DNA from: a filamentous cyanobacterium ESFC-1
GTDB lineage: Bacteria > Cyanobacteriota > Cyanobacteriia > Cyanobacteriales > Spirulinaceae
Assembly: GCA_000380225.1 (NCBI GenBank)
Contig: KB904822.1
Span: 1-64,000, forward strand
Direction: 5' to 3'
Length of the DNA: 64,000 nt
The translations under genes were made by a program, and so were the position numbers. Of this stretch, positions 1-15,144 are shown piece after piece. The notes below the pieces were generated by a model. The model saw nothing but the letters and a program-made list of their open reading frames with translations, was not told the DNA's origin and searched no databases. Within the stretch, counting starts at the first letter, position 1. Each line of letters begins with the position of its first letter.

Positions 1-1247
1 CAAACGCTGGGGATCAGGGAAACTTGTAGGGGTTTCAGTTCCTTTACTTCCTAATGGAAGTCGATAGCAGCAAAATACTGTAAGCAAGCAATAGGTGTAG
101 ATATTGTTTCAGTTCCTTTACTTCCTAATGGAAGTCGATAGTTGAAACTCTCCCTAGTACCGGACACAGTTTTCCGTTGATGTTTCAGTTCCTTTACTTC
201 CTAATGGAAGTCGATAGCTCATTCTAATAGCCATAACAGTTGCCTACATTGCTGCGTTTCAGTTCCTTTACTTCCTAATGGAAGTCGATAGCTACGATTT
301 TTTGGGAGGATGGTTTGACTGCGATCCACAAAGTTTCAGTTCCTTTACTTCCTAATGGAAGTCGATAGAGGATCGCCCCTTAAAGATGGGTCTTGTAAAC
401 GAGTTTCAGTTCCTTTACTTCCTAATGGAAGTCGATAGGTCGTATCCGTGAAAAATCCAGTGGTCAGAGCAGTGTGGTTTCAGTTCCTTTACTTCCTAAT
501 GGAAGTCGATAGACGGTCTTACGGCTCAACTGTAGGGGAATCAGAAGCGTTTCAGTTCCTTTACTTCCTAATGGAAGTCGATAGTGGTTAACATCCAGTC
601 CCGCTTAGACGAGATTGAAGTGTTTCAGTTCCTTTACTTCCTAATGGAAGTCGATAGGTTGTTGCTCCTACCGGCGTTCATGCTGATCCTCTCACAGTTT
701 CAGTTCCTTTACTTCCTAATGGAAGTCGATAGTTATGGAATGAATTTCAAAGCCCTACACACCATGATTCAGTTTCAGTTCCTTTACTTCCTAATGGAAG
801 TCGATAGTCCCAGTGACTTCAAGGTTGACCCTGACTTATCCGTTTCAGTTCCTTTACTTCCTAATGGAAGTCGATAGGTACGAGCAGAAAAAGTTTATGC
901 TTGACCCTAAGATATGGTTTCAGTTCCTTTACTTCCTAATGGAAGTCGATAGCTTGAAGTTCGGGCATTGGGGTGTGGTCGAGCATCCCCGTTTCAGTTC
1001 CTTTACTTCCTAATGGAAGTCGATAGAGCTTGTAATTTTCCTTTGGAGGTGATGCCTATTCAAGTTTCAGTTCCTTTACTTCCTAATGGAAGTCGATAGC
1101 CGTCCCCGCTGAGGCCAGTGGTAGTAATTACTATTTAGTTTCAGTTCCTTTACTTCCTAATGGAAGTCGATAGCAATGATATTAAGAAGAATGAGGTTGT
1201 GATAGAGTTAAGTTTCAGTTCCTTTACTTCCTAATGGAAGTCGATAG
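1..1247 (-). CRISPR. CRISPR array 1 (17 repeats in the window)
   Basis: Seventeen 36-bp repeats start at 32, 106, 182, 256, 333, 403, 477, 549, 622, 697, 772, 842, 917, 991, 1064, 1138 and 1212, separated by spacers of about 34 to 40 bp. Read on the minus strand each repeat begins CTATCGACTTCC and ends GGAACTGAAAC, with a 6-bp stem ACTTCC/GGAAGT around the loop ATTA. The conserved leader lies at the right end (1248-1436), so the array is transcribed leftward and its newest spacers lie near 1174-1211. All repeats are alike and the left end lies outside the window, so the older end is not seen. Open frames reading through the repeats are artefacts. Confidence 0.98.
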
Positions 1248-2810: not shown

Positions 2811-3800
2811 ATGCGCTCTCTCTATGTTTCTCAGCAAGGGTGTTATGTTTCTCTGCAACAAGAAACCCTGCAAGTTCACCACCGCAGCCAAGTTTTGCAG
2901 CAAATCCAACTCCCTCATCTCGAACAAATCCTCATTTTCGGGAAGTCGCAAATCACAACCCAAGCGATTCGAGCTTGTTTATGGCGCAATATTCCCATCG
3001 TTTATCTGTCGCGGATGGGGTATTGTTACGGTCGGGTTATGTCCATCGAGCGCGGCTATCGCCACTTACAACGATATCAGCAAGAATTGGTTTTGGGCGA
3101 TCGCGTTACCCTAGCCAGAGCCATTGTCGCCGGGAAACTCAAAAACTCTCGCACCTTGCTTCTACGTCAACAACGCCAGCGCCATCTGCCCCAACTTGAC
3201 CCAATCATCCCCCGTTTAGAAGCATTAGCCCAACAAGCCCAAAATACCACCGCCCTCGATAAACTCATGGGACTCGAAGGTGCAGGTGCAGCCCAATACT
3301 TCAGCGCCTTGGGTCAATGCTTGACTCATCCGGACTTTGACTTTATTGCTCGCTCCAAGCGCCCACCCCTCAACCCTGTCAACGCCCTACTCAGCTTTGG
3401 TTATCAAGTCGTGTGGAATCACCTACTATCTCTCATTGAAGTCCAAGGACTCGATCCCTATTATGCCTGTTTGCACGAAGGTACAGAACGCCATGCTGCC
3501 CTTGCTTCTGACCTTATCGAGGAATTTCGCGCCCCTGTGATTGATGCCTTAGTTTTGTCAGTTATCAATCGGCGTTGGCTAGAAGTTGGGCGCGATTTTG
3601 TTTATCACCAAGGCGGTTGTTATCTCAATGACCAAGGCCGCAAACGCTTTTTGAAGGCATTTCTACAACGTATGGAAGAACCCATCAAAACTGAATCGGG
3701 CTTGCAACCCAAGTGGGATATTCTCAATCAGCAAGTAAAAGCATTTAAACAGTTTGTCTATCAGCCCAGTCGCGGCTATAAACCGTATCAAATGCGCTAA
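2811..3800 (+). CDS. cas1: CRISPR-associated endonuclease/integrase Cas1
   Basis: Cas1 forms a complex with Cas2 that integrates new spacers at the leader end of arrays. The 329-residue length is normal. The N-terminal beta-rich domain starts MRSLYVSQQGCYVSL. The helical catalytic domain shows LMGLEGAGAAQYF (conserved metal-binding Glu near residue 151), then YACLHEGTERHAALASDLIE with the His of the active site, followed by EFRAPVIDALVL. The ATG at 2811 is the first in-frame start after the non-coding stretch. The gene is followed 57 bp later by cas2, and the two probably form one transcript ending at the hairpin at 4161-4192. It is not fused to a reverse transcriptase. Confidence 0.97.
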   Translation: MRSLYVSQQGCYVSLQQETLQVHHRSQVLQQIQLPHLEQILIFGKSQITTQAIRACLWRNIPIVYLSRMGYCYGRVMSIERGYRHLQRYQQELVLGDRVTLARAIVAGKLKNSRTLLLRQQRQRHLPQLDPIIPRLEALAQQAQNTTALDKLMGLEGAGAAQYFSALGQCLTHPDFDFIARSKRPPLNPVNALLSFGYQVVWNHLLSLIEVQGLDPYYACLHEGTERHAALASDLIEEFRAPVIDALVLSVINRRWLEVGRDFVYHQGGCYLNDQGRKRFLKAFLQRMEEPIKTESGLQPKWDILNQQVKAFKQFVYQPSRGYKPYQMR

Positions 3801-3857
3801 GTTTGTCTAAAAACTTGGCTCATTTCCCTTATTAACCAATTGCCATATAAAAGTATT

Positions 3858-4142
3858 ATGTCTCAATTTTATGTAATCGTTTACGATATCCCCTGCAACA
3901 AACGCCGTAAGAAAATAGCCGATTTATTAGAAGGCTATGGTCAGCGCGTTCAATACTCTGTTTTTGAATGTGTTTTGTTTCCAGAAAAATACAAAGAACT
4001 CAAACGCCGCTTGCGTAAGCGCATTAAAACCAAAGAAGACAGTATTCGCATTTACCCCTTAAAATCTTCGGCTTTATCTCGTGTTGAAATTTGGGGCGCA
4101 AGTCCACCTTTGACCCAATTACCGGGGTCTGTTGTGGTTTAA
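3858..4142 (+). CDS. cas2: CRISPR-associated protein Cas2
   Basis: This 94-residue Cas2 has the typical start MSQFYVIVYDIP, with the conserved Asp at the end of the first beta strand, and the RVQYSVFECVL segment of the ferredoxin-like fold. It is the structural partner of Cas1 in spacer acquisition. An in-frame TTG six codons upstream is possible, but the ATG at 3858 matches the normal N-terminus of the family. The stop is followed by a strong terminator, so cas2 ends the adaptation operon and converges with the distal end of array 2. Confidence 0.97.
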   Translation: MSQFYVIVYDIPCNKRRKKIADLLEGYGQRVQYSVFECVLFPEKYKELKRRLRKRIKTKEDSIRIYPLKSSALSRVEIWGASPPLTQLPGSVVV

Positions 4143-4160: not shown

Positions 4161-4196
4161 AAAAGAGAGGGCTGATTCAATCCCTCTCTTTTTTGT
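4161..4196. terminator. Bidirectional intrinsic terminator between cas2 and array 2
   Basis: The arm AAAAGAGAGGG (4161-4171) pairs perfectly with CCCTCTCTTTT (4182-4192) around a 10-nt loop, and more T residues follow. The reverse strand also ends in a T run. The hairpin can therefore stop the cas1-cas2 transcript from the left and the array 2 transcript from the right. Confidence 0.9.
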
Positions 4197-5262
4197 TTTT
4201 CAGTTCCTTTACTTCCGAGTGGAAGTCGAGAGAAGGAAGGACGTGGAGTAGTAGTTATCATTTCCATACAGTTTCAGTTCCTTTACTTCCGAGTGGAAGT
4301 CGAGAGCCTCTATTATCCTCATATCTGATGAGACAAAAGATGGTTTCAGTTCCTTTACTTCCGAGTGGAAGTCGAGAGAAACATTTGGGAAGGCCTATTT
4401 ATCTTTTTACTCCTGAGTTTCAGTTCCTTTACTTCCGAGTGGAAGTCGAGAGAAAGTTAAGGAAATGGTTCGGGCTGGCTGCAACGTCACGTTTCAGTTC
4501 CTTTACTTCCGAGTGGAAGTCGAGAGCTGTTCGCTTTCAACTCCCATATCTCTCAGCTTACTTGTTTCAGTTCCTTTACTTCCGAGTGGAAGTCGAGAGC
4601 AGCTTCTATCTTCGAACGGCTTTTTATCAAATATCGTTTCAGTTCCTTTACTTCCGAGTGGAAGTCGAGAGCTGACTCAGGTGAATGGCTTAGGGATTGG
4701 AGCAGTAGTTTCAGTTCCTTTACTTCCGAGTGGAAGTCGAGAGTTAAAACGATAATACGTGACCATTATTATGTGGTGTGCCAGACGTTTCAGTTCCTTT
4801 ACTTCCGAGTGGAAGTCGAGAGATTTCTGTCAAGAGAACACAGATTACAGTCATCAAGAGTTTCAGTTCCTTTACTTCCGAGTGGAAGTCGAGAGCGAGA
4901 CAGCCCAAGACGGGATGGACAAAAGAACAGGGTTTCAGTTCCTTTACTTCCGAGTGGAAGTCGAGAGTTAAAACGATAATACGTGACCATTATTATGTGG
5001 TGTGCCAGACGTTTCAGTTCCTTTACTTCCGAGTGGAAGTCGAGAGATTTCTGTCAAGAGAACACAGATTACAGTCATCAAGAGTTTCAGTTCCTTTACT
5101 TCCGAGTGGAAGTCGAGAGCGAGACAGCCCAAGACGGGATGGACAAAAGAACAGGGTTTCAGTTCCTTTACTTCCGAGTGGAAGTCGAGAGTTTTAGGAA
5201 GGTAACGGCTTTACGCCCTTGCTCTGGTTTCAGTTCCTTTACTTCCGAGTGGAAGTCGAGAG
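4197..5262 (-). CRISPR. CRISPR array 2 (15 repeats)
   Basis: Repeats start at 4197, 4271, 4343, 4417, 4491, 4564, 4636, 4708, 4787, 4860, 4932, 5011, 5084, 5156 and 5227. Read on the minus strand they begin CTCTCGACTTCC, have loop ACTC between the same 6-bp stem arms as the other arrays, and end GGAACTGAAAC. The leader at 5263-5452 shows transcription to the left. The distal repeat at 4197 has lost its terminal base (C to A at the last position on the minus strand), as is usual at the old end. Three consecutive spacer-repeat units are present twice. Confidence 0.98.
4744..5191. repeat. 224-bp tandem duplication of three spacer-repeat units in array 2
   Basis: Segment 4744-4967 (three spacers with their repeats) is followed immediately by an identical copy at 4968-5191. 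The spacers begin TTAAAACGATAATACG, ATTTCTGTCAAGAG and CGAGACAGCCCAAG in both copies, in the same order. Confidence 0.97.
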
Positions 5263-5452
5263 GGCGGGGGATCAGAACCCGCACCATGCCTTGATTGTAG
5301 CACCCGTTTGCGAGGATGACTCAAAACTGGGGTTAAGGCCACCCCAAAAAAACGCATCGAACCCCCTCAAACCCAGATGCAGCAAGGGTTCGAGGATGAA
5401 AACGAAAAACCGTCGTTTGAGCCACTTTACAATCATCCGCGCAAAAATCCCA
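5263..5452 (-). promoter_or_regulatory. Leader of CRISPR array 2
   Basis: This block abuts the leader-end repeat of array 2 and closely matches leader 1 (1248-1436), with shared stretches such as TTGTAGCACCCGTTTGCGAG and the GGTTCGAGGATGAAAACG region. It ends only 36 bp from the stop codon of the effector operon, so transcripts of that operon would run into the array in the same direction. Confidence 0.85.
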
Positions 5453-5487
5453 ATCTGTTAGAAAATCAATCACTTTTTGGCTAAAAC

Positions 5488-7230
5488 TTATGGTATTGCT
5501 GACCATACTTTAGTAAAGCTATAGGCTGACATTGATAGAGTCCGTTGGCGTTGCTGAATTACGGTATGAAAATGAAAAATAAACAATCTTGAAGATGGCT
5601 TATTCAATAGTTTAGCAAGTGCCAATAAATACAAATCATGTTCAAAATAAGTAACACCATTAGGTTCAAATACAGTCAAGAAGCAAGACTTTGAGTATTG
5701 CCTTACAGAATATCCAGAAGGACGAGTTTTACTATTTCCGCACAAATCTGGTCGGCTACTGGCATTGGTTGAGCAAACCTTATGAACAATTTTTTTCCAT
5801 TCTTGAGCATCTTTGCTTTTCCAAATACTAACTAAGCTTCCAACTTGAGGAGAACGAGAACCGCTTTTGCTAATTCCATATCGTTTAGCAATATCGCTAA
5901 TTTGATCGAGCAAATTATCAATTAGTTCTGTCCAAGAATCCTTAGAAAAATTTGGAAGACTTTTATCGATTCGACCTGTTGTAAATTGACTACCGCGAAA
6001 CACACTACCGCGTCTAAAACTATGAGGTGGTCTTCGCCATCCGGGTCCCAATCCTCCTAAACGACTCGCTAGAATGAGTAACCGTCCTATCAACTGACGA
6101 TGGTTAAATAGACTGTCACAATCTACTCGAACTTCCCAAACCTCATTGGTAATAGATTTAGGTATATTTCGGTAAAATGTTTCTTGGCTCAGTTGAGACT
6201 CATCAGCAATAGGGTCAACTGCTTTGAGATAGCTGGTTAACGTTAGCTCCCCCGGACAACTCGTTCCCCCAAAAACTTTATCGGTGAGTGTTATGGCATC
6301 TTCTTTACTAAAATTGAGTAAAGCTAACCGAGTAAAATAACCCCGCAAACAAGCCCTCAATACTTGAGGACTCCAGCGATATTGCCCTACTTGTTCAACC
6401 TTATTTTTTTGGACTTTATGGGTCACAACTGTGGGCTTCATTCCCCTAAGTTTCAACTTCCACATTCCTTTAGGAATCTCCCTTGCAAAGCGACCAAAAC
6501 CCGAAGCCGTACCGCGACCCACTCCTTGCTCCCTTAGCATCGTTTCTAGAGCCTCACAGAACCATTTTTCTTGGGTTTGCGAGAGTGGGTCTCGTACAAT
6601 CACTCTGACACGATATCGTGTAGGTGCAATACTACCACGAGCCAAAGCAAAATTTTGTATATTCTGTGGCTTTGGAGATGCTTCTTGCCACTGAATTCCT
6701 AATTTATCGCGACTTTTTTTGTCAGCGAAAATCTGCCATTCTTGTTGAGGATTCAAAGGATAAGGTTTTAGGTTTTGAAGGGGTAGGGTTTCAAAACGCA
6801 CCTTTAGCGGTTGCCAACTTTTCCAATCTTTTGTTACTAAACTCTGCCAGAATTTTTGCTCATCTGAAGTAAAATTACTACGATTTTGGCGTAACCAATG
6901 TAAAAATGCCCCTCGTATACTTGAACCCGGAACGCAAGGAACACCGCCAATTTGTGCGGGTAAAATTCCTCCTTCGGGGAAGCTACCACTCCCCACTTGA
7001 ATCGGACTAATGACTTGTAGATTACTGACGCTAATTTGCGTCGGTAAGGGACGTTTAGGGACTTTTCGATTGGTTGCAGTTAGTCGAGGAGCAGGTTGAA
7101 CTGTACCATCCCAATCATCTTTTATCTTGGGAATATCACTGGTTAGCGGAACCCATCCTTTTTCGTCATCAGGGTTATCAGTATTGACAGTGTACCACGG
7201 GGGTAATTCTGTGGGTAATAGTTCGGGCAT
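5488..7230 (-). CDS. Double-RAMP protein, Cmr6/Cmr1-like effector subunit
   Basis: This 580-residue protein is the last gene of the effector operon and would bind crRNA/target RNA in the Cmr complex. The first RAMP part has VSNLQVISPIQVGSG, then PGSSIRGAFL (about residues 100-110) and a glycine-rich loop GVGRGTASGFGRF near residues 235-247. The second part contains a further glycine-rich motif GGLGPGWRRPP near residues 390-400, as in Cmr1-type RAMPs. Standard III-B loci encode Cmr1 and Cmr6 separately. Neither is found elsewhere here, so this longer protein probably supplies both roles. Assignment to RAMPs is firm from the motifs. The Cmr6-Cmr1 fusion reading is inference. It lies 50 bp downstream of the cmr5-like gene. 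Confidence 0.8.
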   Translation of the reverse strand: MPELLPTELPPWYTVNTDNPDDEKGWVPLTSDIPKIKDDWDGTVQPAPRLTATNRKVPKRPLPTQISVSNLQVISPIQVGSGSFPEGGILPAQIGGVPCVPGSSIRGAFLHWLRQNRSNFTSDEQKFWQSLVTKDWKSWQPLKVRFETLPLQNLKPYPLNPQQEWQIFADKKSRDKLGIQWQEASPKPQNIQNFALARGSIAPTRYRVRVIVRDPLSQTQEKWFCEALETMLREQGVGRGTASGFGRFAREIPKGMWKLKLRGMKPTVVTHKVQKNKVEQVGQYRWSPQVLRACLRGYFTRLALLNFSKEDAITLTDKVFGGTSCPGELTLTSYLKAVDPIADESQLSQETFYRNIPKSITNEVWEVRVDCDSLFNHRQLIGRLLILASRLGGLGPGWRRPPHSFRRGSVFRGSQFTTGRIDKSLPNFSKDSWTELIDNLLDQISDIAKRYGISKSGSRSPQVGSLVSIWKSKDAQEWKKIVHKVCSTNASSRPDLCGNSKTRPSGYSVRQYSKSCFLTVFEPNGVTYFEHDLYLLALAKLLNKPSSRLFIFHFHTVIQQRQRTLSMSAYSFTKVWSAIP

Positions 7231-7280: not shown

Positions 7281-7724
7281 TTATACGTCTTGCCCATTTG
7301 CATCCTTAATTCGCATTGTCCAAAACTGGATTGTATCGGCAATTTGTAGTAATAATTCAATCAACAACGTTTGTTGGTTAAAATTAAGCTTTTGATAACG
7401 TTCTTGAAATTCTTTTGTTGTCATATCAGCATTAATGCCTAAATCATTACCGACGATATTACATAAAACGATACGAGCAACAGCCCAAGCAAAATATCGT
7501 TTTGCTTCATCTGAACCAATATCATTAAATTCAGGAATTACACCACCAATCAAGCGGAGCGATCTGGACATTGCCCAAAAACGTTCAACTCCCCAAGTCG
7601 AAACATAACTCGCAATGTTACTAGCGACTCCTTGCCACTTTTTGAGATTTTCGGTGTCTTTGCCGCGTTCCAATTCGCTGAAAACTTCGCGGTCTAGTTC
7701 ATAAGATTTGACGTTATCGGCCAT
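7281..7724 (-). CDS. cmr5: Small helical subunit, Cmr5-like
   Basis: This 147-residue protein is predicted to be almost all helical, with the conserved-looking core WGVERFWAMSRSLRLIGGVIPEF and a second helical part ending in LLIELLLQIADTIQFWTMRIK. Position between cmr4 and the double-RAMP gene, small size and helical content fit the Cmr5 (Cas11) small subunit that lines the crRNA-target duplex. Sequence conservation in this family is low, so the call rests mostly on context. It is 48 bp downstream of cmr4 and shares its operon. Confidence 0.65.
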   Translation of the reverse strand: MADNVKSYELDREVFSELERGKDTENLKKWQGVASNIASYVSTWGVERFWAMSRSLRLIGGVIPEFNDIGSDEAKRYFAWAVARIVLCNIVGNDLGINADMTTKEFQERYQKLNFNQQTLLIELLLQIADTIQFWTMRIKDANGQDV

Positions 7725-7772: not shown

Positions 7773-8666
7773 TTAAGTTGGCGTACTCACTGGAGTAGGA
7801 GCCATTGCTTTGATTTCAATGCGTCCATAACCTACACTCCAGAGTCCTCCTAAATAATGTTCTTGATGGAGAAACTTTGACCATTGATCGAGGTTTTCTG
7901 CATGACCGCGTGTTGTCCAAGCAAATAAGAAAACCGCACCCGGAGGAAGCCCCTCAACCGCGAATAAGTTTTTGACTAAGCTACCATCGTCGCCATTTTC
8001 ATCATCGTTATTGTTATCGTTGTTTTGAACGTTTTGGTTTTCCAAATTGCCGTTGGCGCTGGCATTGTTTAAGAGTTCATCGTAATCTTTGAGGCTAACT
8101 CTGGGTTGACGAACTAAACCCATTTCTACCAAAAGATTAATACTGTCATCGGGAACAACAATGCGACGTTTTGCTGGAATTTCGGTTGGTGTTGGTAATT
8201 CCCCTGGCCAATGTTCAACATTGGTGAGTTTGAGCCAACGCAGATATACTGTTTGCTCATGCAGTTCCTGTGCGGTTACATAAACTGTTTCGCTGTCAAA
8301 TGACAGTACGTCCTCACCGCGTAGCTGTTGACAGCGATTAATCCAAGTCGGACAACTGACCCACCAATTGCCGTAACCCAAAACATGAATCGGCCACCAT
8401 ACCGGCCACCCCCAACTTAAACCAAGATAGCCCGGTGAAGGATTATCGCGATCGCCCCCAAACCAATTTTCCACAAAATTAGGATAATTCGATGAAGTGG
8501 TGGCACTTTCCCGTAATGCCCCCCGTAGCGAACTCCCTGGAATAGCCGGGGAATTATCCGGTAAGCGAAAAACAGGGTTGTTGTTGCCGCGACTACTGCT
8601 GTCTGCGCCGCCGATGTGGACGGGTTCGCGACAGATTAACCATTCAAGACCAGCTTTATTTGTCAT
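7773..8666 (-). CDS. cmr4: Cmr4-like RAMP, backbone subunit with apparent Asp-to-Asn change
   Basis: This RAMP of about 297 residues should form the repeated backbone of the complex. It has PVHIGGADSSSRG, then NNNPVFRLPDNSPAIPGSS and LRGAL (about residues 25-52), and a C-terminal glycine-rich loop LGGLWSVGYGRIEIK. In Csm3 and Cmr4 the loop reads IDSPVIRDP or VDLPIQR, where the Asp cuts target RNA every 6 nt. The aligned position here is Asn. The acidic, Asn-rich stretch around residues 205-228 looks like a disordered insertion. I chose the second ATG (8666), which gives a shorter overlap (11 bp) with cmr3; an ATG five codons earlier at 8681 is possible. Confidence 0.85.
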   Translation of the reverse strand: MTNKAGLEWLICREPVHIGGADSSSRGNNNPVFRLPDNSPAIPGSSLRGALRESATTSSNYPNFVENWFGGDRDNPSPGYLGLSWGWPVWWPIHVLGYGNWWVSCPTWINRCQQLRGEDVLSFDSETVYVTAQELHEQTVYLRWLKLTNVEHWPGELPTPTEIPAKRRIVVPDDSINLLVEMGLVRQPRVSLKDYDELLNNASANGNLENQNVQNNDNNNDDENGDDGSLVKNLFAVEGLPPGAVFLFAWTTRGHAENLDQWSKFLHQEHYLGGLWSVGYGRIEIKAMAPTPVSTPT

Positions 8667-9702
8667 TATCTCGATCCTCAAATAACCATAAATGTCCGTA
8701 GCCTAATGTGTGGCGATAATAAGAATCGGGCAGGGGGCCCGATTCGGTTAGGGGTGCTTTATCTCGCCACAAATAAACCGCCCCCGCCGGAGTCAGCCAT
8801 TCCCCAGGCGTGAGCCTAGAGATTTGCTGCACAGGTGTGTCGTCTTGGGTAACAGCCAGTTTTGTCCAAGTTTGCCAAGCTTCTCCTTGGTCAGCCGCAT
8901 AAGCAGCAACCTGAGTAGAATCAGGATAAGGCAGCGAGACTTTTTCTTGGTCTTTTTGCCATAATGCTCCCGTCAACAAAACTGCTCCTGTAGCTTGGGT
9001 GCATTCTTGCGTTAGCCAGCGATCGCGAACTTGTCTTTCTGGCAATGGGTCTATGATGACAGGTGTTCCCCCAGCTCCCAAACAACTCCAACGGGATGGT
9101 ATGTAAGTTTCAGTGGTTGAGTCTAGGACTTCTTGAGCGCGGTCATCGATAATTTTGACCAAAATAGACCAACCGGGTTTGAGTAGGGTGGTCATTTCTG
9201 CAAAGAAGCCCCCTTCTTCACTGACCTGAAAATTGTCGCGTTGGTTGTGACTCAGGGTCAAAGTTTCCCAAGGCAAAGGCTGGAGAGACGGTTTCGGTAA
9301 AACCTTTTTAGCCCACAGGCTTTTTAGCTCAGTACCGCTAATTAAATAACGCCCACCCACTAACTCTAAGTCTTGTTTTTGATGTTCGGGAGATTGGGTT
9401 TGCCAAGATTGACTTTGTTCGTCCCAAAGCAAACGATAAATGACTTCGGGTTTTTTGGGGTCGCCATCATCGAAGTTCAGACCATAAACAGGTAAAGGAA
9501 GTGTTACATAAATCTCGCGACTGCTTTGTTGATACCAAAACGGCCCCCAAAGCTTATAGGGTTTTGTCAAACCCAGACAAGCGGCAAGATGATGACCGTT
9601 GGGCGGCCAGCGACAACCCACTTGACCGCTATTTTGACCAACAGGGGTAAGATTCCCAAATGAGAGGCTTCCCGATGGTGTGATGGTGTACCATCCAGTC
9701 AT
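8656..9702 (-). CDS. cmr3: Cmr3-like RAMP subunit
   Basis: This 348-residue protein matches Cmr3 (Cas5-like), which caps the complex at the crRNA 5-prime tag next to Cas10. The N-terminal part has GSLSFGNLTPVGQ and WPPNGHHLAACLG, like the proline-rich segment after the first strand of Cmr3. The C-terminus has HTLGYGHLWLFED, a glycine-rich closing strand. The order cas10-cmr3-cmr4 is the normal III-B order. It is 85 bp downstream of cas10 and its end overlaps the start of cmr4, indicating translational coupling. Confidence 0.85.
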   Translation of the reverse strand: MTGWYTITPSGSLSFGNLTPVGQNSGQVGCRWPPNGHHLAACLGLTKPYKLWGPFWYQQSSREIYVTLPLPVYGLNFDDGDPKKPEVIYRLLWDEQSQSWQTQSPEHQKQDLELVGGRYLISGTELKSLWAKKVLPKPSLQPLPWETLTLSHNQRDNFQVSEEGGFFAEMTTLLKPGWSILVKIIDDRAQEVLDSTTETYIPSRWSCLGAGGTPVIIDPLPERQVRDRWLTQECTQATGAVLLTGALWQKDQEKVSLPYPDSTQVAAYAADQGEAWQTWTKLAVTQDDTPVQQISRLTPGEWLTPAGAVYLWRDKAPLTESGPLPDSYYRHTLGYGHLWLFEDRDNDK

Positions 9703-9787: not shown

Positions 9788-12046
9788 CTAGCTTTGTGTC
9801 TGAGCGACGGTTTTAGTGATTGACTGTACCCATTTTTCTCGTTCTCGTTGTTGACGAGCTAAGAAGGCTTTGAGACTAATCCAATCTAACCACCATTGCC
9901 AATTATTAATCACAGAGGCGTATTTGCTTCGTCCCACGCGCTCAACTGTTGGCCAATCTAAGGGAATGCCTACACTTTGCAATAAGGGGGTGAATAGTTC
10001 CCCAACAATGCGTACTGAGGAGTGATTGCGGAGGCGGGTACTTTCCACATAAGCCAGTAGTTTTTCCCAACGATTGAGTGCTGTTTTGCCTGTAACGTCG
10101 GGTTCAATGGGCATCAGCAGTTCCCACAGTTCCCAAGGACAAATCCATTGCAGAGATTGACCGCTATTAAATAAGACGCGAACACAAACCCGATTGCGAC
10201 CTGCTTCTTTGGCTGCTTTATAAGCTTGATTTAAGCCGCGATGCCACAGGGATTGAGGGATACGCCGTTGAGCGATAACAATGCCCAAGCTAAAGTCCAT
10301 TTTTTGACCGGGAACGGGGTAGATTTCGTCGCCATACTGAACCCAGCCATCACTGAATGAGTCTAGAGGTTGAGTGATGGGGCTGGTTTCACCCCGCCAT
10401 AAATGATAAAGGTCATTGGTTAGCGGAACACACTCAGTCAGCGGCCCGAGTAAAAGAAAGTCATCGCCTCCGGCAAAGATAACTTTGCCTTGGTGATAAT
10501 CTTGAACCAAGGGATAAAGTAAACGATTCCACTTGTTGAATAAAATTGATAAGTCTAGGGTATGGGGCAGTTCGAGTTGACGGGAGCGATCGCGTGGTAA
10601 GGAGGGAGCGTCGCAATCTAAGTTATACAAGGCTTTTTGCTCTGGGGTAGGATGCCAGTTTGACCAAGGCAAGTTTAAGTCAGTATATTGATCGCCAGCT
10701 AACCATTTACCCATATTGTCGCCGTCTCCGCGCCAGCCGACCGTCCACTCAATGGTACTTTCCCATCCTTGCGGTCTTTGGGAATCTCGATCCCATGCGG
10801 TTTTGTGGTCTTCAGGGATATTACGCCGTTCTAAGACCCGTGGGTGATGTAGCTTGATATCGAGGTTATCAATCTGGGGCATTCCCCAGGCGCTTTTGGG
10901 AGGCGTGTCTCCTAGATGTTTTTTGAGGGGTTCGAGGGCATGATTCCAAACTTCAGGATGATCTCGGACAACATCAACAATCCAAGTGGCGGCGATCGCG
11001 CTACGATCTGGGAAACGTTCCCAAGGACAACTAGGCGGGGTAGGGCAATCTGGCCACAAGGATTGTAGCGTTGGTTCGATAATATCGGGAACTGAAGCTA
11101 ACCTTTTAACTAACTCAATGCTGTTGAGGCGATCGCTTTCTGAAAACAAGCCGGATAATTTGGATTTTTGGGCAATACTTTGCCACCATTGGTCAAGTTG
11201 CTGTCTGGGGAGTCCCCAAGTGCCACCGCGATCGACTTGTCGCAAGCCAGGATGCCAAATGGATAAGTTACCCGCACTAGGGCTAGTCGGCCCTCCCCAC
11301 CAAGTACCTTGCCAACCGCGACCGAGTTTGCGGGCTTCTACGCGCTGATGAAGTGTAGCCAGGGTATCTTGTAGATTTTCGCGGTCATAAGGGGCTGACT
11401 CGGCATAAACAGTCCACTGATATTGATTATCGGCGTGGATAGTACGCCAACCGACACCACCGAGATGGCGACTATAGTTGATGGTCGCGTTTTCAAGGTG
11501 TTGGGTAAATCTCTCCCACTCTTGGTTTAAAGTATTTTCAAACTGCTTTAGCCATTGGTCATCAGGACATAACCCTGTAATGACATTGGGTAACTCTGCT
11601 TGCCAAAATAAATCTGCATCACAACTGTTACCGTTCAACCAGTTAAGGAGAGGACTGGATTGATGCAACGGTAATAAGACATGACCGCCCTCGGCTTGCC
11701 AGCGATAGATTAAAACCGCACTAAGGTAATGGCACAACCACGACCCAACGGCCCAGTCTCGCAAGCGTTGACCGCCGCCTAAAAAGCTTTGAACGGGGCC
11801 AAAGGTCAGCACCGCGATTTGACCTAAATGGCTAAAGTCTTGGGCTTCTATTTGGTCGCAAGCTTCTACTGTTGCTCCGCCTCCCCAAGCATAGCGGCTA
11901 CGGAGATGGGGGGAGTTTTGCCATGTTCCACTAACGGGATGAATGGAAAATGGTGCGCGATCGCGAGGTAGTGTATTAGGTACGGCATAAATTTGTTGCT
12001 GTTGAATGAGATAATCGGCAGCGTTGGGATGATTGGTTGGGTTCAT
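9788..12046 (-). CDS. cas10: Cas10/Cmr2 without HD domain, with intact GGDD cyclase motif
   Basis: This 752-residue protein is the large subunit. The N-terminal palm contains LTFGPVQSFLGGGQRLRDW and AVGSWLCHYLSAVLIYRWQ, corresponding to the IGPVQSF...RDLWAGSYLLSYL signature of Cmr2. The second palm has VIFAGGDDFLLLGPL with GGDD near residues 526-529, the active site that makes cyclic oligoadenylate or related nucleotides upon target recognition. No N-terminal HD nuclease motif is seen, so DNA cutting by this subunit is not expected. The start overlaps the end of the Csm6-like gene by 4 bp (ATGA), coupling the signal maker to its likely receptor. Confidence 0.93.
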   Translation of the reverse strand: MNPTNHPNAADYLIQQQQIYAVPNTLPRDRAPFSIHPVSGTWQNSPHLRSRYAWGGGATVEACDQIEAQDFSHLGQIAVLTFGPVQSFLGGGQRLRDWAVGSWLCHYLSAVLIYRWQAEGGHVLLPLHQSSPLLNWLNGNSCDADLFWQAELPNVITGLCPDDQWLKQFENTLNQEWERFTQHLENATINYSRHLGGVGWRTIHADNQYQWTVYAESAPYDRENLQDTLATLHQRVEARKLGRGWQGTWWGGPTSPSAGNLSIWHPGLRQVDRGGTWGLPRQQLDQWWQSIAQKSKLSGLFSESDRLNSIELVKRLASVPDIIEPTLQSLWPDCPTPPSCPWERFPDRSAIAATWIVDVVRDHPEVWNHALEPLKKHLGDTPPKSAWGMPQIDNLDIKLHHPRVLERRNIPEDHKTAWDRDSQRPQGWESTIEWTVGWRGDGDNMGKWLAGDQYTDLNLPWSNWHPTPEQKALYNLDCDAPSLPRDRSRQLELPHTLDLSILFNKWNRLLYPLVQDYHQGKVIFAGGDDFLLLGPLTECVPLTNDLYHLWRGETSPITQPLDSFSDGWVQYGDEIYPVPGQKMDFSLGIVIAQRRIPQSLWHRGLNQAYKAAKEAGRNRVCVRVLFNSGQSLQWICPWELWELLMPIEPDVTGKTALNRWEKLLAYVESTRLRNHSSVRIVGELFTPLLQSVGIPLDWPTVERVGRSKYASVINNWQWWLDWISLKAFLARQQREREKWVQSITKTVAQTQS

Positions 12047-13554
12047 TGGAGATTATCCATGAGGTTTTGGGCTTTTTCGCGATATTTATTAGCACGATCT
12101 TCAACGTCTGTTTCAATGTCTGCTAAGTCAAGAATGTAGTGGAAGTGGTCGATAGCTTTTTGAGACGGGTGTTTAAGAGCAGTGACACTCCCTAATTTTT
12201 GGGTCTGTTCATCGAGGATTTTGTCAATGCGATCGCCTCGGAGATTGTGATATAGCGAATTACGAAGGTCGTTAAATCCTTCTTGTTTTTTGACATCTGT
12301 TTGTAACTGCCAATTACTGATGTAGAATTGCTTGACAAATTTGTTCCAATGGGGGTCAGTAATTTTATCAACTTGTAAATTACTATCATTAAAGCGTACT
12401 TTAATTGTTCCTTTAGATAATAAATCTCTGGTTAACGCTGTAATTCCCAATAAATTGACTTTGACCGTGCTATCAGCTACTAAATCAGCATTTTTCCACT
12501 GGTATTGTCCTTTACTCTGCTGTTCTATCAATAAATAAATCGCCAATTCAAATGCACCCGCCATGCGTAGATACCAGTGCATCCATTGACTGCGTTCGCG
12601 AAAAGCTTGTTCGCTCCACAGCGCGATCGCCAAACGCTCCAAAATTTTATCTCGTTCGTCTGATATGTTCCGATCTTCGATGTTAAGAGAAACTGCTTTA
12701 TCGAGATAGGTAAGGTCATCTTCGAGTTGCTGATCTTCTATCTGATGCCCTTTCAGCAGTTCTAATGCACCACCAAAATCTTGTATTTTGACCAACTCGC
12801 GAATTTGGGGAACTCTCAATCGCCATTGCCAATGTTCGCCTGAATGATAGGGATCACTTATTCCTTGCTCGGATAAGTAGATAAACTCAATTTGATACTG
12901 ATCGAGTTTCTTTTCTATTCCCCATAGATATAATGCACTACTTAATGCTGGTGTACCGCTACTATGTTGAACAAAAAGCCCATCGATTGAGATCAGTTCA
13001 TCGTCGCAATTTTTGAATTGGATAGTTTTTGCTAGGGTTTCGTCTTCTTCTAAAATAATGTTGGTTTTTAAGAAAGGTGTAATCGCCTTTGCCATACCTT
13101 CCCAATCGGCTGCACCATATTCAAGATCGTGTGGAATTTCAAATTCTTTAAGACAGCAATTGATTCCATTCTTGTCACACCATTGCTGTAAGATATTTTT
13201 CCACCAAATCCCGTCTCTAATAACTATTTCGTTCCAAACACTATCATCTCGCTGGGGCTGACTTGCCCATTCTACTTGATTAGTGAGAATAATAAGCCAG
13301 TGTAAATTGATATCTTTTTTGTTTTGGTTAGCAAGCTTTTGTATGAGGATTTTTTCAGTATTAGCAATCAAAGGAAACTTGACTTTAAGAGTCCCCTTTT
13401 CAAATTCTTCTTCAAAAAAATCTCGATTATCTAAAATATCGTCGAGGTCTCTATCTTCGTTGAAAAGTTGATAGCCATCAACAAACTCAGAACTTTTATT
13501 GGCTGCTTCAATATCGCTACTGCCTAGAACTTGAATAACTAGATAATTGTTCAT
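12043..13554 (-). CDS. Csm6-like CARF-HEPN ribonuclease
   Basis: This 503-residue protein has an N-terminal Rossmann-like half with VQHSSGTPALSSALYLWG (about residues 194-211), the SSGTP-type loop known from the CARF domain of Csm6, which binds cyclic oligoadenylate. The C-terminal helical half carries LRNSLYHNLRGD with an R-x4-H HEPN catalytic motif (Arg about 429, His about 434). The expected action is collateral RNA cleavage when Cas10 makes the activator. Its frame ends within the first codons of cas10. No transmembrane segment is seen, so it should be cytosolic. Exact subfamily (Csm6 or Csx1-like) is uncertain. Confidence 0.82.
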   Translation of the reverse strand: MNNYLVIQVLGSSDIEAANKSSEFVDGYQLFNEDRDLDDILDNRDFFEEEFEKGTLKVKFPLIANTEKILIQKLANQNKKDINLHWLIILTNQVEWASQPQRDDSVWNEIVIRDGIWWKNILQQWCDKNGINCCLKEFEIPHDLEYGAADWEGMAKAITPFLKTNIILEEDETLAKTIQFKNCDDELISIDGLFVQHSSGTPALSSALYLWGIEKKLDQYQIEFIYLSEQGISDPYHSGEHWQWRLRVPQIRELVKIQDFGGALELLKGHQIEDQQLEDDLTYLDKAVSLNIEDRNISDERDKILERLAIALWSEQAFRERSQWMHWYLRMAGAFELAIYLLIEQQSKGQYQWKNADLVADSTVKVNLLGITALTRDLLSKGTIKVRFNDSNLQVDKITDPHWNKFVKQFYISNWQLQTDVKKQEGFNDLRNSLYHNLRGDRIDKILDEQTQKLGSVTALKHPSQKAIDHFHYILDLADIETDVEDRANKYREKAQNLMDNLQ

Positions 13555-13671: not shown

Positions 13672-15144
13672 TCATTCACTGTATTTTAATACTAGCCAAA
13701 CTAAGAAAGCCAAGCATAAACCACCCCCTAAGCCAATCATTAAAGCCACACCCAGAACCATACCGTCATCTCCGGCAGTATGGCCTCTGATATTAATTCC
13801 TAAAATGCCGATAATTAAACCGGGAATACCGAGAAATATACCGAGAAGATTCAATTTGTTTTCAACTCGTTCGGTGCTACGCTGTATGGTGTATTCGTGC
13901 ATTTCTTGGACTTCATCGCGGACCTCTTGATAAAGTTGCTCAATCTGAAAGACCTCTTGCCATTTGAGGTAACAACGATGGTGATGTTCTCGTTGCATGG
14001 CTTGATAAAAATACCCTCTTGCTGTAAAAGAAAGGAGGCGATCGCGAATATGCTCAAATGCCTTTTGTCGCTGTTTTTCTTGGCGGGAGTTGGGGTCTAG
14101 TACCCAGTGTTGAGCCACTTCAAAAGAAAGCATCATCAAAGTAAAACGTTGATGTAAAGCCAAGAGAAATAACAAAAAGTATTCATTGCTCAAATGAGAT
14201 GGTAAGGTAGATCGAAAGAATGGTTTTTCAGGGGTATTGCAACCGACAAAGCTACCACCATCAATAGACATCACAAACCATTGGTTTTTAGCGTAGGAAA
14301 GCAGGTTGGGGTGGTTTAAGGCTAAATCTTCTGGTGCAGGACATTGACCTTGCTCGAAGTGGAAAAAGTTGCGTGTTTTATACAGTAGATGGGGAATATC
14401 GTCTTCTTCTATCGAGTCTACAAATAAGGAAACGAAAGGGAACATTTGCCCCGGAATAAAGACTTCTTGCCACCATTGACGGGCATTTTGTCGAAATTTG
14501 CCTGTTTCTAAAAGTGCTGTAATAATCTTGTCTAGCGTTCCTTTACCTTCTGGAGATTGGGCTAAACCACCAGCAAAATCTGGAAAAAAGGGTTCATACT
14601 GTTTCTGTTGGTTTTTCTTGTCGTAACCAACCGATTTTTGACTTCTGATTTGAACACCGCGCTTTTTTTTCAGGAAGCGGAAGTAATGGATAAAGTCAAG
14701 CCAATCTTTGAGTGCTTCACTTTGGGGCTGGACTTGGACAGTTAAAAAACCAACGCCAATTTTAAATAAAGCTAATTTAATATGAGACGAGCCTTGTCCG
14801 CGTTGACCAAATTCAAAAGCAATTTCTGGTTTTTGTGGAGGAACTAAAAACCACTCACAATTAATTCCGAGTAGCTTGCGGAGTTCGTTGCTGTTTTGCA
14901 ACTTCCACAATCGGGCTGTGGGGGAGTGGGTGGAGTTGAGGTATTGAGCCACATGAGCCAGTAAGTCTTCTTCAGAGAATTTGTCTTGCTCCCAAATCGG
15001 AATGGCTTGTTGTTCGCTCTGGAAGGTTGCTGCTGTGATGGCGCTTGAGCGTTGCTCAAATTCTTGACTGTTGAAAAGGAAGGGATAAACAAAATAAGTA
15101 GCTGAAGCTTCGCGATCTACCCGAACATGCTCAAACTGCACCAA
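13672..15144 (-). CDS. CorA-like type III-associated membrane protein
   Basis: This 490-residue protein is the first gene of the effector operon. Its long N-terminal part is soluble with no motif I recognise. Then come charged helices (about 395-430, with QEMHEYTIQRSTERVENKL) leading into two transmembrane helices near the C-terminus (about 435-455 and 463-485). The order soluble domain, coiled helix, two C-terminal TM segments, and GILGINIRG after TM1 in place of the GMN motif, matches CorA-like channels. CorA homologues are known in type III-B loci; in Bacteroides fragilis one answers to SAM-AMP made by Cas10. Whether this protein conducts ions or binds a nucleotide is unknown. It lies 117 bp upstream of the Csm6-like gene. 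Confidence 0.78.
   Translation of the reverse strand: MVQFEHVRVDREASATYFVYPFLFNSQEFEQRSSAITAATFQSEQQAIPIWEQDKFSEEDLLAHVAQYLNSTHSPTARLWKLQNSNELRKLLGINCEWFLVPPQKPEIAFEFGQRGQGSSHIKLALFKIGVGFLTVQVQPQSEALKDWLDFIHYFRFLKKKRGVQIRSQKSVGYDKKNQQKQYEPFFPDFAGGLAQSPEGKGTLDKIITALLETGKFRQNARQWWQEVFIPGQMFPFVSLFVDSIEEDDIPHLLYKTRNFFHFEQGQCPAPEDLALNHPNLLSYAKNQWFVMSIDGGSFVGCNTPEKPFFRSTLPSHLSNEYFLLFLLALHQRFTLMMLSFEVAQHWVLDPNSRQEKQRQKAFEHIRDRLLSFTARGYFYQAMQREHHHRCYLKWQEVFQIEQLYQEVRDEVQEMHEYTIQRSTERVENKLNLLGIFLGIPGLIIGILGINIRGHTAGDDGMVLGVALMIGLGGGLCLAFLVWLVLKYSE

Follow-up and report, generated by a model that had tools for sequence, protein, structure and literature searches.

Cyanobacterial type III-B Cmr4 proteins without the catalytic aspartate, and a possible RNA-sensing role for their complexes

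Results and discussion

The type III-B locus of ESFC-1

The window, a stretch of 64,000 nucleotides of contig KB904822.1 from the filamentous cyanobacterium ESFC-1, contains a type III-B CRISPR-Cas operon on the minus strand, transcribed in the order corA-like, CARF-HEPN, cas10, cmr3, cmr4, cmr5 and Cmr6-like, with cas1-cas2 and two CRISPR arrays on the other strand. It was classified as type III-B by the PADLOC Cas10b score of 1089 bits obtained for the cas10/cmr2 product (9788..12046, minus strand; 752 aa, Cmr2_N from residue 78), together with its Cmr3, Cmr5 and Cmr6-like neighbours. These are encoded by cmr3 (8656..9702, minus strand; PADLOC Cmr3 5e-10, conserved gene order), cmr5 of subfamily Cmr5gr11 (7281..7724, minus strand; PADLOC 7.7e-73) and a gene for a Cmr6-like RAMP protein of 580 aa (5488..7230, minus strand; PADLOC Cmr6 5.5e-19, Pfam RAMPs 4e-13). 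The plus strand carries cas1 (2811..3800; Pfam 4.7e-89), cas2 (3840..4142; Pfam 4.3e-25 on part 3855-4142), array 1 (32..1247; 17 repeats of 36 bp), for which no match was found in phage records, and array 2 (4196..5262; a degenerate first repeat followed by 14 exact ones). Array 2 includes an exact 224-bp tandem duplication (4708-5155) that copies three spacers, and both arrays end in a 239-bp sequence (1212-1450 and 5227-5465) whose copies are 89% identical.

Between cmr3 and cmr5 lies the minus-strand ORF 8681 to 7773, encoding EWLICREPVHIGGADSSSRGNNNPVFRLPDNSPAIPGSSLRGALRE in agreement with the preliminary description; it has 302 codons from a TTG, the ATG at 8666 being the likelier start. 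The product is a divergent Cmr4, the Cas7 backbone RAMP of III-B complexes. It matches Pfam RAMPs (7e-23) and has Cmr4 as best PADLOC model (7e-20), while NCBIfam TIGR02580 (Cmr4) gives 32.9 bits, below the family threshold set by the curated cut-off of 87. Foldseek, seeded with a structure model of low confidence (pLDDT 55.6), returned Cmr4 chains at all of ranks 1-26, with a best E-value of 5.4e-09. By sequence the best PDB match is 6ifk, a Csm3 record in which Asn occupies the catalytic position (AINSPVIKD). Other records of the same protein read AIDSPVIKD, with Asp at that position, and the Asn version was reportedly engineered to stop cutting.

The catalytic loop

RNA-cutting Cas7 proteins, Cmr4 and Csm3 alike, are marked by a catalytic Asp in a GxxDxP loop. 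This Asp is a ligand of the catalytic Mg2+, every cut is disrupted when it is mutated, and it has been said to be common to all type III active sites (PMC11026444). At this place Asp-bearing Cmr4s read GxxDxPIxR and the window protein reads GGADSSSRGNNNPVFR, with residues R31-G32-N33-N34-N35-P36 encoded at 8574..8591 (minus strand). The hallmark Asp is absent, and the stretch is certainly free of any acid in any register. With GNNNP the loop is also one residue shorter than GxxDxP. His22 and Arg39 are both retained.

When 106 Cmr4 and Csm3-like proteins were aligned with L-INS-i, all 80 representatives without the Asp, drawn from five cyanobacterial groups, had a gap in the column of the catalytic Asp, where all 11 non-cyanobacterial Cmr4s and all seven canonical Csm3s have the Asp. 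Pairwise phmmer comparison of the LLG group with Pyrococcus furiosus Cmr4 gives the same gap, whereas comparison of the window protein with Csm3 pairs Asn34 with Asp33 of Csm3. A plain deletion of the Asp was considered and dropped: three cyanobacterial III-D Csm3-like proteins read GSDLP, which matches GNNNP in length and carries an Asp where the window protein has Asn34, so that a deleted Asp and an Asp that became Asn34 are indistinguishable. The preliminary description, which had the catalytic Asp replaced by Asn, was thus right about the missing acid, while the choice between Asn and deletion depends on the alignment. Within the window's clade Asn34 is itself replaced, by Thr in L037 and by Gln in L171, and G32, N33, N35 and P36 are invariant.

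Distribution of the Asp-less loop

Orthologues were collected from genome contigs, from sets of 386 and 291 cyanobacterial genomes and from plasmids, taking the loci at the top of the score lists. Among the cyanobacterial Cmr4 versions so examined, Asp is absent in 103 of 106, and the loss is therefore neither private to the window nor as narrow as first described, but spans most cyanobacterial III-B Cmr4s in this collection. All 103 distinct sequences, in five groups, keep the Gly-Asn pair. Alignment of cyanobacterial III-B Cmr4s bears out the loss in every one of the 15 distinct members of the window's clade, which read GN[N/T/Q]NP, and in the 88 members of the four other groups (88/88), whose loops are GNLLGIAR, GNLMGIAR, GNLNLIFR and GN[IV]L[DE]I. 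In the last of these, the NIL group, an Asp or Glu stands in for the Pro, at a place distinct from that of the catalytic Asp. The three remaining cyanobacterial Cmr4s keep it (GVVDLP or GTVDLP), as do the Csm3/III-D loops examined and all 11 non-cyanobacterial Cmr4s fetched (from Thermus, Allomeiothermus, Runella, Aureispira, Thermomicrobium, Paenibacillus, Azospirillum, Arcobacter, Allochromatium, Vibrio and Aeromonas).

The Asp-less set includes the III-Bv Cmr4 of Synechocystis PCC 6803, encoded on plasmid pSYSA, and a second III-B Cmr4 of ESFC-1 itself (L040/L077), which belongs to another group than the window protein; the Cas10 of this second locus (contig G000 C1, near 891000-910500) retains an LLHDP motif. 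The whole ESFC-1 genome holds only four RAMP-family places, two of them these Asp-less Cmr4s, and no Csm3-family match. A plasmid search with the window Cmr4 returned cyanobacterial records only (25/25), and no further relatives of Cmr4 were found in the viral contigs scanned.

Selection and phylogeny

The Asn following the Gly, Asn33 in the window protein, is fixed in 103 of 103 sequences and its codons mix AAT and AAC in every group, which shows that purifying selection on the amino acid has kept the loop and that Asn33 does something. This conservation bears on the possibility that the system is degenerating and that the missing Asp marks lost function. Broken loci do occur in the clade: L075, in which cmr4 is split by an interval of about 5 kb that holds two long Cas1-related ORFs; L076, in which cas10 is in two frames; and L171 on plasmid CP101711 of Synechocystis sp. 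B12, an apparently degraded member with many short CDS and the loop GNQNP. Against decay, the loop is invariant over a clade whose members have 57-67% protein identity to the window Cmr4, with synonymous codon turnover; the GGDD and HEPN motifs described below are intact; the window has two arrays and cas1-cas2; and defence against plasmids has been reported (Behler 2018, cited in PMC9676260) for the systems of Synechocystis 6803, where the III-Bv Cmr4 lacks the Asp. We regard degeneration as very improbable.

In a tree made without the loop columns, every one of the five Asp-less groups is set apart from the other sequences by a single branch, and two changes between loop types are required. 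Several origins of the loop were considered on that ground and set aside, as a tree holding all Asp-less rows together was not rejected (p-AU 0.258). One ancestral change of the loop is the most economical account, but it is unproven.

Candidate substitute acids

Three acids are invariant in the window's clade, Asp27, Asp42 and Glu58. Asp27 of the GGAD motif (8601..8603, minus strand) is the closest upstream of the loop and the nearest candidate for a substitute. It is present in 12 of 12 clade sequences and absent from the other Asp-less groups, and a column-by-column search of the alignment found no substitute acid specific to all Asp-less groups. An AlphaFold2 model of the window Cmr4, computed with ten orthologues, has a pLDDT below 50 in the loop, so Asp27 cannot be placed relative to the scissile phosphate. 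At residues 40, 90 and 281 the window's clade is without acids that are common in other Cmr4s, for example the Glu or Asp after IxR (Leu40).

The invariant acids speak for a second explanation, in which cutting is retained, perhaps slowly, by a rebuilt site that uses Asn33, Asp27, or RNA geometry with a metal held elsewhere. Asp27 could have taken over, and an Asn33 that is invariant across five groups despite codon turnover would fit such a site, as would the retained His22 and Arg39. In type III-Dv the chemistry is partly driven by the RNA, and an Arg has been proposed as the base (PMC11026444); in Bacteroides fragilis, Cmr4 D27A still cuts, only more slowly (PMC10600005). The statement in the preliminary description that changing the Asp stops cutting therefore has to be narrowed: in most tested systems such mutants do abolish cutting (PMC8682760), which also weighs against a rebuilt site, while the B. 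fragilis complex is merely slowed. The lack of Asp27 in the other Asp-less groups speaks against it as a general replacement. Csm3 of the Streptococcus thermophilus type carries an Asp (GGSD) at the matching place, beside its catalytic Asp. That Asp is not known to rescue a catalytic mutant, which also weighs against Asp27. A rebuilt site is in our opinion unlikely, yet a serious alternative.

Cas10 and the receptors

The Cas10 of the window is without an HD nuclease domain and has an intact GGDD (FAGGDDFLLLG; 10460..10471, minus strand) in its palm/cyclase domain, as have the clade members. A HD motif within the first 120 residues of Cas10 was found in none of 14 sequences of the window's clade (two being repeat fetches of a locus), none of 21 of the NLN group and 41 of 56 of the remaining groups, Asp-bearing groups included. 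Loss of the Cas7 Asp is thus not coupled to loss of HD, and since Asp-less groups include some with an HD-bearing Cas10, it is not specific to receptor-only systems. In the window's clade, with HD absent and GGDD intact, the complex retains no recognisable catalytic activity other than messenger synthesis.

A receptor for such messengers is predicted directly upstream. The Csm6-like CARF-HEPN protein of 503 aa (12043..13554, minus strand; PADLOC CARF_HEPN 1e-13) is encoded next to cas10 in the clade, namely in 11 of the 12 loci whose sequence upstream of cas10 is intact. It combines the CARF fold and the HEPN RxxxxH motif by which Csm6/Csx1 receptor RNases are recognised. The motif reads RNSLYH (12247..12264, minus strand), and R431, N432, L434 and H436 are invariant in 13 of 13 aligned sequences, which share the CARF stretch QHSSGTPAL and the HEPN pattern RNxL[YF]H. 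The best fold match of its structure model (pLDDT 73.7) is Csm6 of Enterococcus italicus (2.6e-07), with low TM-scores. Upstream of it lies a gene for a CorA-like membrane protein with a type III-associated sensor domain (13672..15144, minus strand; PADLOC CorA 4e-124; Pfam CorA 2.8e-05, slightly below the cut-off). CorA-like proteins occur in five clade loci.

A complex that may sense without cutting

The best explanation in our view, which we judge to be somewhat probable, is a III-B complex that does not cut: it would sense target RNA and defend only by way of second messengers and their receptors. A Cmr4 backbone that has lost the metal-binding Asp, with a catalytic loop one residue shorter, would most likely bind target RNA but not cut it at the regular backbone sites, and target binding would turn on the Cas10 palm domain. 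Defence would then fall to the receptors whose genes lie upstream: in most of the clade the Csm6-like RNase and, in some loci, the CorA-like protein as an additional one. The preliminary description had likewise made defence depend on receptors; with GGDD as the only recognisable activity and CARF-HEPN in 11 of 12 loci this is reasonable for the window's clade, but the HD-bearing Asp-less groups show that it does not follow from Asp loss as such.

The same description, which also raised stable target binding and longer signalling as possibilities, held that cutting ends Cas10 activity. This agrees with the literature: target cutting and release form the off switch of Cas10 (PMC6053304). In Sulfolobus islandicus a nuclease-dead Cmr4 is lethal through autoimmunity (PMC9368842), so that a naturally dead version needs another brake on signalling, and none was identified in this analysis. 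Bacterial systems with a dead Csm3 are tolerated (PMC9368842), and in Vibrio metoecus the D26A mutation has little effect on signalling, since even the wild type cuts slowly (PMC8682760). A non-cutting complex might be switched off if the target dissociates, if the HEPN RNase destroys the RNA that is bound, or if the messenger is broken down, possibly in the CARF domain of the receptor itself. A search of the ESFC-1 genome for the ring nuclease Csx3 gave no match, but neither did its controls, so that the result is uninformative.

Destruction of the target could also be the off switch proper, with no cutting by Cmr4 and another subunit or a factor in trans (the Cmr6-like protein, Cas10 or the HEPN RNase) in its place. 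Most loci indeed carry the Csm6-like RNase with an intact motif, and the Cmr-beta system of S. islandicus tolerates loss of Cmr4, which was attributed to a Cas10-linked RNase (PMC9368842). HEPN cutting is, however, unspecific and begins only after signalling, and the Cmr6-like protein is without a GxxDxP loop. We consider this quite improbable.

Carried over to the whole lineage, the non-cutting reading would be that one ancient loop change made a large cyanobacterial III-B lineage, Synechocystis 6803 III-Bv included, into non-cutting RNA sensors with an invariant Asn, and that in the window's branch HD was lost as well, leaving the second messenger as only output. We advance this tentatively, as a possibility. 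Such complexes may detect invader RNA and raise the alarm without cutting it, and would serve sustained RNA detection. A lineage without the Asp would offer a test by nature: does the end of Cas10 signalling require cutting, and how do cells escape the autoimmunity seen with the dead Cmr4 of S. islandicus (PMC9368842)? With a member in the model cyanobacterium Synechocystis PCC 6803 the question is directly testable.

Comparison with known type III systems

It has been stated that RNA cutting by the backbone seems to occur throughout type III (PMC6053304). The 2025 classification reports the Cas7 Asp as lost in III-G, III-H and type VII and conserved in III-A2, and its passages on this loss make no mention of III-B (PMC12669027). 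We found no report of such a loss in cyanobacterial III-B in the open-access literature. The window shares with III-G, III-H and type VII a Cas7 whose catalytic Asp is not conserved; III-G and III-H combine it with an inactive cyclase and a predicted reliance on HD, and type VII with a predicted reliance on Cas14, whereas the window has an intact cyclase motif and has lost HD.

With the canonical III-B systems of P. furiosus, Thermus thermophilus and Archaeoglobus fulgidus the window shares the RAMP fold, the gene order cas10-cmr3-cmr4-cmr5-cmr6, the conserved His and GSS(L/I)(R/K)G motif of Cmr4 and, in Foldseek, Cmr4 chains as best matches. It differs from them in the shorter loop without Asp, in its Cas10 without HD, and in having one Cmr6-like protein, 580 aa long; a separate cmr1 was not seen at the locus. 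The Synechocystis 6803 III-Bv system (CRISPR3 on pSYSA; Cmr4 Sll7087, L172) has a Gly-Asn loop without Asp (GNLLGIARE). Its Cmr4 belongs to a separate group, with about 24% identity to the window protein over the matched part, its Cas10 is longer (980 aa), and its neighbours include csx18 and other genes, with no Csm6-like gene beside cas10.

The V. metoecus Cmr system with NucC resembles the window in being III-B, in its Cas10 without HD and, as predicted for the window, in a defence by messenger-activated effectors. It differs in retaining Asp26 of Cmr4, and cuts at 6-nt spacing though slowly, this slowness being the cause of its long activation (PMC8682760). The III-B system of B. fragilis likewise has a CorA-family membrane effector, with SAM-AMP as messenger, but keeps Asp27 of Cmr4 and has NrN to degrade SAM-AMP (PMC10600005). 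In the window's clade a Csm6-like gene is present and, judged from the gene neighbourhoods, no recurrent extra enzyme gene was seen. A survey has suggested cA6 as the signal to which CorA may respond where it is paired with a Csm6-type gene and SAM-AMP-degrading enzymes are missing (PMC11229360); the pairing in the window is similar.

Over its first ~420 residues the CorA-like protein resembles proteins of four further loci (L031:531-3137, L034:371-2614, L035:495-3083 and L076:14296-16785), in which a longer and unlike C-terminal part replaces the CorA-like end, for a total of 748-869 aa. Compared with the CorA-like protein of the window, these sequences suggest an apparent swap of effectors on one sensor.
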